This document shows, one piece after another, positions 5,099 through 37,981 of a DNA stretch of 38,718 nt; the stretch's first letter is position 1, and every line of letters begins with the position of its first letter. The notes below the pieces were generated by a model that was given only the letters and a program-made list of their open reading frames with translations, had not been told where the DNA came from and ran no database searches. Both the position numbers and the translations under genes were made by a program. Source of the DNA: Bacteroidia bacterium (GTDB lineage Bacteria > Bacteroidota > Bacteroidia > B-17B0 > Aurantibacillaceae); the NCBI GenBank assembly GCA_022842625.1, contig JALHPG010000022.1, forward strand, positions 1 to 38,718, read 5' to 3'.

Positions 5099-5167
5099 GG
5101 TTCCCACAAAAAGGATAACAAACAGAGCAAGTTGTTTGGCTACGTCTAGGATGGTGCGGTGGTAAAT

Positions 5168-5252
5168 GACGATTTGGTGCGAACCCGAATTTTTCGTTAA
5201 ATGGGTAATGGGTTTAGGCATCGCAACGAAAAATTTAGGTTGGCAAATCGTC
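5168..5252. repeat. Nested inverted repeat downstream of phoH
   Basis: An outer stem (GACGATTTG at 5168-5176 with CAAATCGTC at 5244-5252) encloses a short GAACC/GGTT pairing and an inner 11-bp stem (AATTTTTCGTT at 5188-5198 with AACGAAAAATT at 5225-5235). This gives a long two-part hairpin about 85 nt in length. I see no protein here. It may be a dispersed repeat or a folded 3' UTR. Confidence 0.6.
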
Positions 5253-5267
5253 TTGATTTCTTTTGTT

Positions 5268-5293
5268 ACTTTTCTTCATCAAGGAAGAAAAGT
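5268..5293. repeat. Short palindrome ACTTTTCTTC / GAAGAAAAGT
   Basis: A perfect 10-bp inverted repeat (5268-5277 with 5284-5293) with a 6-nt loop, flanked by G-T-T and T-T-A. It resembles short palindromes common between Bacteroidota genes. The poly-A flank on the plus strand argues against a plus-strand terminator. Confidence 0.5.
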
Positions 5294-5375
5294 TAAAGAA
5301 AAAAAACCTCATCGAACTCATTTGAAAAACGAGATACTAATCATCTTTAACTGAACCCTAAATAAAATGCATAAA

Positions 5376-5400: not shown

Positions 5401-5422
5401 CTATTTTAAATCTAGAACATCA

Positions 5423-5671
5423 ATTTTTTTGTCACTTTTGGCGCAGGGCAAATGTGTTGTTCACATTTGAGCCAGCTTGTGTGAAGGATATTTAGTAATG
5501 CAGCGCGCAGGCTGGCTCAATGCTTTGCATTGCCCTCTTTCGCGACTTAGATGCAGCGAAAGAGAAACCGTTGCCTGTCTAAGCTCTTTTCTGCCTGCTA
5601 ATTACTCTAAACGCATTGCTTAGACAGCAACTATCTCTGCAAAAAATCAAAATAGCATTACGTTGAAAAAC
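5423..5671. repeat. Structured dispersed repeat, copy A
   Basis: This segment shares a scaffold with 37690-37890. The common parts are a TTTTTTTGTCACTTTTG entry, a hairpin with a 12-nt loop (stem 5535-5543 with 5556-5564, loop GACTTAGATGCA), an AAACCGTTG spacer, a second hairpin (5571-5584 with 5618-5630) and the exit block CAACTATCTCTGC followed by AAAAAATCAAAATA. Copy A also carries an extra palindromic cassette at 5445-5537. Stem sequences differ between copies but pairing is kept. No coding capacity is evident. Its nature (RNA, mobile palindromic repeat, or protein-binding DNA) is unknown. Confidence 0.75.
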
Positions 5672-5732
5672 TTAACCCTATAAAATTTATTTTATTATTT
5701 GGCTTTTTGGTATTCGACAAAAATCATTTCTC

Positions 5733-37060: not shown

Positions 37061-37086
37061 TTAGTATAAATTAAAAAACTAAAACA

Positions 37087-37503
37087 ATGGCGAAAAAAGC
37101 AGTAAAAAAAGCAGCTCCTAAAAAAGCAGCTAAGAAAGCAGCTCCAAAAAAAGCAGCTAAGAAAGCAGCAAAAAAAGCAGCTCCTAAAAAAGCAGCTAAG
37201 AAAGCAGTAAAAAAAGTAGCTCCTAAAAAAGCAGCTAAGAAAAAAAGAACTGGTACCCCAGGCGTAGGTTTAAACAAGCCTTATACACCAAGTGCAGCTC
37301 TTGCTGAAATTGTTGGTAACAAAGCAATGCCTCGTACTGAAGTTGTAAAAAAATTATGGGTTTATATTAAAGCCAATAAATTACAAGATGCAAAAAACAA
37401 ACGTATGATCAATGCTGATGCTAAATTAAAACCGGTATTCAGTGGTAAAGGTCAAGTATCTATGTTTGAAATGGGTAAACACTTATCTAAACACTTAAGT
37501 TAA
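37087..37503 (+). CDS. Histone H1-like Lys/Ala-rich tail fused to a SWIB/MDM2 domain
   Basis: A 138-residue chromatin-type protein. The first 58 residues are a Lys/Ala/Pro tail made of five or six KKAAPKKAAKKA-type units, like the C-terminal tail of histone H1, with near-identical DNA repeats of about 33-48 bases. Residues about 60-138 form a SWIB/MDM2 domain (YTPSAALAEIVGNKAM, EVVKKLWVYIKANKLQDAKNKRMI, FEMGKHLSKHL). Such fusions occur in Bacteroidota and Chlamydia, and the tail should bind DNA or RNA without sequence preference. A nucleoid role is likely but not shown. The gene has its own promoter candidate and terminator, suggesting strong independent expression. Confidence 0.93.
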   Translation: MAKKAVKKAAPKKAAKKAAPKKAAKKAAKKAAPKKAAKKAVKKVAPKKAAKKKRTGTPGVGLNKPYTPSAALAEIVGNKAMPRTEVVKKLWVYIKANKLQDAKNKRMINADAKLKPVFSGKGQVSMFEMGKHLSKHLS

Positions 37504-37557: not shown

Positions 37558-37689
37558 TTGTTTTAATACAATTAATACCGAAATAGTCGAATATCAAATT
37601 CACTGTAATACCTATCGCTATTGATTTAAATTTTAAATTACAGTATAAATCTCTACCGGAAATATCTACAGCGTCTTAAATTTTTGGTA

Positions 37690-37890
37690 TTTTTTTTGTC
37701 ACTTTTGACGCGCAAAAGTAACCAAAACGCTTTTGATTTTTTGTAGGAGATTTTTATTTTGACGATTTAGAGGCAGTCAAAATAAAACCGTTGTCTGTCT
37801 AAACTCTTGTCTTTATGCTGAATCAGCTAACCGCAGAGTTTAGACAGCAACTATCTCTGCAAAAAATCAAAATAACATCACGTAGAAAAG
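37690..37890. repeat. Structured dispersed repeat, copy B
   Basis: The second copy of the repeat at 5423-5671. It has a TTTTTTTGTCACTTTTG entry, an outer stem (37731-37750 with 37854-37872), a hairpin with a 12-bp stem and 12-nt loop GATTTAGAGGCA (37752-37763 with 37776-37787), a second hairpin of 17 bp with one bulge (37790-37807 with 37835-37851) and the exit AAAAAATCAAAATAACATCACGT. The two inner hairpins inside an outer stem make a three-way junction. It fills most of the gap between the SWIB and CHAT genes and has no coding capacity. Confidence 0.78.
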
Positions 37891-37981
37891 CTATGTGCCT
37901 ACAAAATCTGTTTTTAATTATTTTACTTTTTTAAGGACGACTAAATATCATTTATTTTTTTAAACGTTCTTTGTCCCAAAC

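Follow-up and report, generated by a model that had tools for sequence, protein, structure and literature searches.

The window analysed here, 38,718 nucleotides of contig JALHPG010000022.1 in the Bacteroidia bacterium assembly GCA_022842625.1, carries two copies of a structured repeat, copy A in the junction between a PhoH gene and the next gene and copy B at a SWIB locus. The start of the SWIB-domain gene (37069-37251) is made up of ten repeats of 12-15 nt that give a lysine/alanine-rich, histone-H1-like tail. The initial annotation had placed the repeat at both sites, which holds, and had given it narrower bounds, which are revised here to 37584-37943 for copy B and approximately 5413-5719 for copy A. 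Both hairpins described for the pair were recovered. Hairpin 1 is formed in copy A by CTCTTTCGC (5535-5543), the loop GACTTAGATGCA (5544-5555) and GCGAAAGAG (5556-5564), and in copy B by TTTTATTTTGAC (37752-37763), the loop GATTTAGAGGCA (37764-37775) and GTCAAAATAAAA (37776-37787), with the two loops identical at 10 of 12 letters, and hairpin 2 shows the reported replacement of a G-C pair by an A-T pair (TAAGC/GCTTA in copy A, TAAAC/GTTTA in copy B). The similarity of the two copies is not a matter of chance, as they share 79% identity over 135 nt (BLAST E 6e-27) and copy A scored 76 bits (E ~1e-14) against a covariance model whose alignment left out copy A. Folded as a single strand under DNA parameters, copy B reached -44.6 kcal/mol, against -18.9 +/- 3.4 for shuffled sequences (z -7.6). 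The features of the two copies are as follows:

37584-37943, plus strand: copy B, whole element of 360 bp with imperfect inverted ends TAGTCGAATATCAAATTCAC and TACTTTTTTAAGGACGACTA (flank alignment and inverted-end scan)
37698-37722, plus strand: copy B hairpin P0, GTCACTTTTG / CAAAAGTAAC, with one C-A mismatch (alignment, pair counts)
37710-37730, plus strand: copy B pseudoknot, P0 loop GCG (37710-37712) with linker CGC (37728-37730) (pair counts, swap test)
37732-37871, plus strand: copy B closing stem P1, 37732-37743 with 37860-37871 and 37746-37750 with 37854-37858, enclosing a three-way junction (pair counts)
37752-37787, plus strand: copy B hairpin P2, the former hairpin 1, with a 12-bp variable stem and the 12-nt loop GATTTAGAGGCA
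37790-37851, plus strand: copy B hairpin P3, the former hairpin 2 (folding, alignment, pair counts)
5413-5719, plus strand: copy A, decayed element with the 5' extension deleted and the P0 3' arm and P1 5' arm lost
5446-5535, no strand assigned: nested inverted pair of another, REP-like repeat in copy A, GGGCAAATGTG...TTGCCC (sequence)
5535-5564, plus strand: copy A hairpin P2 (sequence)
5570-5631, plus strand: copy A hairpin P3 (sequence, covariance model)
5633-5654, plus strand: copy A orphan P1 3' strand, ATCTCTGCAAAAAATCAAAATA, its partner lost (sequence, covariance model)

In copy A, the inverted REP pair at 5446-5535 occupies the place of the P0 3' arm and the P1 5' arm. Read along the plus strand, the complete fold consists of a T-rich start, P0, a CAAAA linker, P1, P2, ACC, P3, CTATnnCT and the 3' strand of P1, with 12 + 5 pairs in P1 and, in this genus, GAnnTAGAnnCA as the P2 loop. 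The repeat is approximately 190-370 bases long, and its four-helix core measures 172-187 nt in intact copies. The constant unpaired bases of the common unit are CAAAA, AGGnnATT, ACC and CTATnnCT, and the positions constant across lineages include CAAAA, AGG, ATT, ACC and CTAT..CT.

The proposal, made from the first two copies, that selection acts on a fold rather than on sequence is supported by the further copies, in which the stems covary in every helix. RNAalifold alone gave 23 of 35 pairs changed on both sides, and under the five-helix structure 91.5% of cells within the genus were paired, with two-sided changes at 34 of the 55 pairs. When covariation was assessed statistically, the genus alignment held 175 two-sided cells against 39.5 after shuffling, a value that 0 of 500 shuffles reached, and the signal was destroyed when partners were slid by 1-3 columns. 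Class-wide, there were 464 two-sided cells against 130 shuffled (0 of 500 shuffles) and two-sided changes at 46 of 55 pairs, in an alignment fitted to the model and thereby favouring the covariation count, although slid versions still gave only 79-100. So much covariation is unusual for dispersed repeats, with most pairs recoded between lineages and the junction bases and pseudoknot kept.

The pseudoknot joins the loop of the 5' hairpin P0 to a linker strand sitting behind CAAAA. These two segments were paired by RNAalifold in place of P0, and 95% of loop/linker cells, as counted on the alignment, are paired. Within the genus the combinations are GCG/CGC, GCT/AGC, GCA/TGC, GCC/GGC and GGC/GCC; in Mesonia the loop GTCTTGAC is exactly complementary to the linker GTCAAGAC, and in Allomuricauda the loop TCTTGAT is complementary to ATCAAGA. 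The pairing is not well seen in g8 and G384. Across 16 loop/linker types, summed complementarity was 60, against 39.4 +/- 3.8 with linkers swapped (0 of 20,000 permutations), in a test devised after the pattern had been spotted and with loops cut by hand. Since a simple DNA cruciform could do without loop-linker pairing, what folds is most likely a single strand rather than a mere DNA palindrome.

Further copies of the repeat exist both in the same genome and in its relatives. Neither outcome named in the initial annotation as refuting it, a lack of additional copies or additional copies with stems that fail to covary, was therefore obtained. A BLAST search with copy A of the genome itself (4.09 Mb, 229 contigs) returned four full copies, namely copies A and B of the window and those designated C34 and C39, together with several fragments, and a DNA match to the repeat was present in 16 of 100 relatives, nearly all of the same genus. 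A two-anchor pattern, the reversed control of which gave 0 matches, detected the repeat in 12 of 40 genus genomes (1-8 copies each); among named genomes it matched Bacteroidota MAGs and, in diverged form, Mesonia hippocampi and one isolate of Allomuricauda. Some pattern matches in genome contigs (L083, L086, L088, L089, L095, L098, L117 and L118) were judged to be chance and excluded, as were four matches in viral contigs that had no likeness to the element outside the anchors, and plasmid and phage collections searched for the repeat returned no match. A profile search of the fetched loci yielded approximately 67 distinct genus copies. A covariance model (R1) was based on 47 genus cores, with 184 positions and 55 pairs, and the search of related genomes that had been recommended with the initial annotation found the fold in 17 of 395 class genomes, spread over eight genera and reaching into further families of the class. 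E values were ~1e-13 in lineages absent from model building and marginal (0.003-0.009) in a few of the 17 genomes, and R1 scores reached 62 bits for the Mesonia copies and 48 bits for Allomuricauda. The early impression that no described family matches is borne out as far as the literature was searched and by the Rfam 15 covariance models, of which none exceeded its gathering threshold in the window, the best weak matches being at chance level (E 0.6 and above). The repeat is a real structured family of Bacteroidota that is missing from Rfam and from the searched literature.

All 67 genus copies are intergenic, as called by a simple script from ORFs of at least 90 codons. The neighbours of 65 copies were convergent in 30 cases, co-directional in 21 and 8, and divergent in 6, with the right-hand gene directed toward the element in 51 of the 65; co-directional neighbours favour one orientation (21 vs 8, p 0.024), and the corresponding figures for distant copies are 5 vs 3. 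In Mesonia hippocampi, copies form clusters of alternating orientation on several contigs (L070, L080, L069, L085), in units of approximately 430-540 bp without ORFs. The G000 junction occupied by copy A is element-free in eight relatives, at 39-198 bp, and the element is absent from 14 other SWIB loci examined, with G018 and G020 carrying a small gene between the SWIB and CHAT genes at the site matching copy B. These sites without the element suggest that it moves, and, among the three options originally offered (a non-coding RNA, a protein-binding target or a mobile palindromic repeat), the empty sites at both loci in the relatives compared favour the last.

Mismatches within the helices bear on which strand folds. 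In the plus reading, there were 34 A-C and 14 G-T events (p 0.006), G to A being the main change (23 vs 7 for C to T), and unpaired positions had no such bias (42 vs 45). As A-C on the plus strand is G-U on the minus strand, this bias points to the minus strand, and gene orientation does likewise; against it, a single basal pair of P1 is a plus-strand G-T in 39 of 41 sequences. The strand signals are mixed. The folded strand may be RNA or single-stranded DNA, and it is as single-stranded DNA that integron attC sites and the ends of IS200/IS605 elements are recognised.

Beyond the core, the extent of the element differs among subgroups. In G037, G000, G016 and G034, the flanks are conserved on both sides as far as imperfect inverted ends of 20 bp (e.g. 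TAGTCGAACATCAAATTCTC ... GACTTTTTGAGGGTCGACTA), mostly 353-426 bp apart. The ends are often flanked by TAAT (left) and ATTA (right), an inverted and not a direct arrangement, and no target duplication was found at the ends beyond a possible TA, which lies inside the inverted repeat. Aligned copies of g8, G248 and G403 have no such inverted ends, their unit opening abruptly with P0, and the 3' tail in G018/G020 is another repeat. As these groups lack the ends or differ in them, what the family has in common is the folded core, with the inverted ends a subgroup trait. A search around the matches in seven genomes, covering approximately 1.5 kb on each side, found no ORF-bearing pair of ends and so no parent insertion sequence. 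Ends of the form TAGTCG..C.TCAAA also bracket or begin other interiors, at L302 (G029:C97:7151-7557), L296 (G000:C19:27598) and L316 (G016:C50:4485), and the G018/G020-type tail module (CGTAAGCACACA...GGCCTCAAAGAAATTCCGTA) is also present without the core (L067 4391-4487, L198 8615-8713).

Several copies, copy A included, hold nested insertions of other palindromes. A REP-like family with the plan GGGCAA-variable stem-GAGCCAGC..TGTG..AAGG is inserted in the element at 5446-5535 of the window and at L202, L203, L208, L189, L191, L138, L146 and L181, with a junction before P2 that is exactly alike in copy A, L202, L203 and L208, and it also stands alone (L033, L034, L036). Single copies at L179, L180, L207 and L365 carry the palindrome CCCGATAGCTATCGGGA (or CCCCGATAGCAATCGGGG) as an insertion within the linker, P0 or P2. 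A third repeat of similar plan, at approximately 5150-5305 of the window on the minus strand, at L002 1250-1450 and at L032, comprises a hairpin GTTACTTTTCTTC..GAAGAAAAGTAAC, the loop CTTGAT of which is complementary to a linker ATCAAG, and then an GACGATTTG/CAAATCGTC stem. It is possibly a distant relative or an analogue, its R1 score being only 11 bits.

The covariation, the covarying pseudoknot, the intergenic spread, the element-free sites, the patchy occurrence and the inverted ends together argue for a non-coding, non-autonomous mobile repeat of Bacteroidota that is recognised as a folded single strand, an explanation held with slightly better than even confidence. The common unit would be one folded strand, composed of P0 with its loop-linker pseudoknot, P1 around the three-way junction, P2 and P3, and a putative trans-acting enzyme would recognise the shape and the constant bases of this strand and move or amplify the element, which would settle between genes, mostly downstream of them. 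As such an enzyme would read shape and constant bases, selection would keep the pairing while the letters of the stems drift. The recombinase that acts on integron attC sites reads a folded strand in this way, so that stems drift and the shape and unpaired bases stay. The element resembles attC in these respects, by analogy, but no cassette ORFs lie between neighbouring copies at the Mesonia and G384 loci read, and integron-like cassettes, considered for the Mesonia copies 430-540 bp apart, were rejected for want of a fitting ORF. Counting against a mobile repeat, no mobiliser was found among Y1, TnpB, reverse transcriptase or an ORF between the ends, target duplication is limited to the possible TA, and the aligned g8, G248 and G403 copies lack the inverted ends. 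TnpB (PF07282) was detected in 0 of 12 carriers, at odds with a TnpB-type guide RNA (omega RNA), and reverse transcriptase (PF00078) had no match in 10 of 12 and a match in two, at odds with a group II intron, retron or DGR. A wider form of the proposal, in which the element represents a class- or phylum-wide kind of mobile element recognised by its pseudoknotted three-way-junction strand and mobilised by an enzyme that belongs to none of the known Y1, TnpB or reverse-transcriptase systems, is tentative and at present rather doubtful.

Among known mobile repeats, REP/BIME sequences and REPtrons (TnpAREP/RAYT) are likewise palindromic, intergenic and multi-copy, fold as single strands and sometimes alternate in orientation, as the Mesonia arrays do, and TnpAREP genes of subclass 2.6 in Bacteroidetes are flanked by 'atypical secondary structures' (PMC6006769). 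However, mobilisation by a Y1 TnpAREP transposase is very improbable here. The element occurred at 0 of 40 Y1 loci of the genus in the profile search and, by covariance model, at 0 of 16 in other carriers, and the carriers G006, G384 and Mesonia G441 had no Y1 match, whereas Y1 is present in most other carriers. REPs are 20-40 nt long (PMC3733652), approximately one-tenth of the length of the element, which has a three-way junction and a pseudoknot, and the 172-187 nt core is not a short hairpin of 20-40 nt with a GTAG or CGTC foot. Bacterial MITEs (PMC10969869), such as that of Porphyromonas gingivalis (PMC4596501), share with the element the lack of an ORF, dispersed intergenic copies and, in part of the family, inverted ends. 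An ordinary MITE, derived from an insertion sequence by deletion, with an incidental fold and with inverted ends on which a DDE transposase acts to move it, would account for the spacing of those ends and for the other interiors bracketed by them, but is unlikely given that the internal fold is conserved and covaries far beyond ends that vary by subgroup, that the units of g8, G248 and G403 start at P0, and that the seven genomes held no parent insertion sequence.

A structured RNA that serves the host, such as a 3'-UTR element or a small RNA bound by an RNA-binding protein, and that spread through its usefulness downstream of genes, would fit the downstream position and the favoured co-directional orientation, the excess of mismatches that are G-U on the minus strand, and a pseudoknot and constant junction bases of the kind typical of functional RNAs. 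This explanation is possible but not the one preferred, since absence from most genus and class genomes and from the compared sites of relatives is not that of a fixed host function, the G-T pair at the base of P1 speaks against the minus strand, and the structured families of Rfam 15, which share a conserved multi-helix fold and constant loops, include no relative. An intrinsic terminator, a G+C-rich hairpin with a T run behind it on the transcribed strand, was rejected: the plus strand has Ts ahead of P0 and C(C)AAAA behind it, so that on the minus strand the hairpin is followed by As. It is also quite improbable that the covariation is purely mutational, with template switching between palindrome arms rewriting both and no selection on the fold. 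Two-sided changes do far exceed one-sided wobble intermediates, and differences between P2 stems come in blocks, as template switching would produce, but the pseudoknot, which is no palindrome, also covaries, the P1 pairing spans approximately 100 nt, the unpaired junction bases are constant, and 19% of P3 cells in the genus are unpaired, so that arms are not always corrected.

If the fold is what an enzyme recognises, as in the mobile repeat proposed here, the copies would constitute a naturally occurring collection of functional variants from which that enzyme and its recognition rules could be found. If the element is instead an RNA, it would represent a structured family of a major phylum that is missing from Rfam. 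Under either reading, formerly unannotated sequence can now be annotated with model R1.
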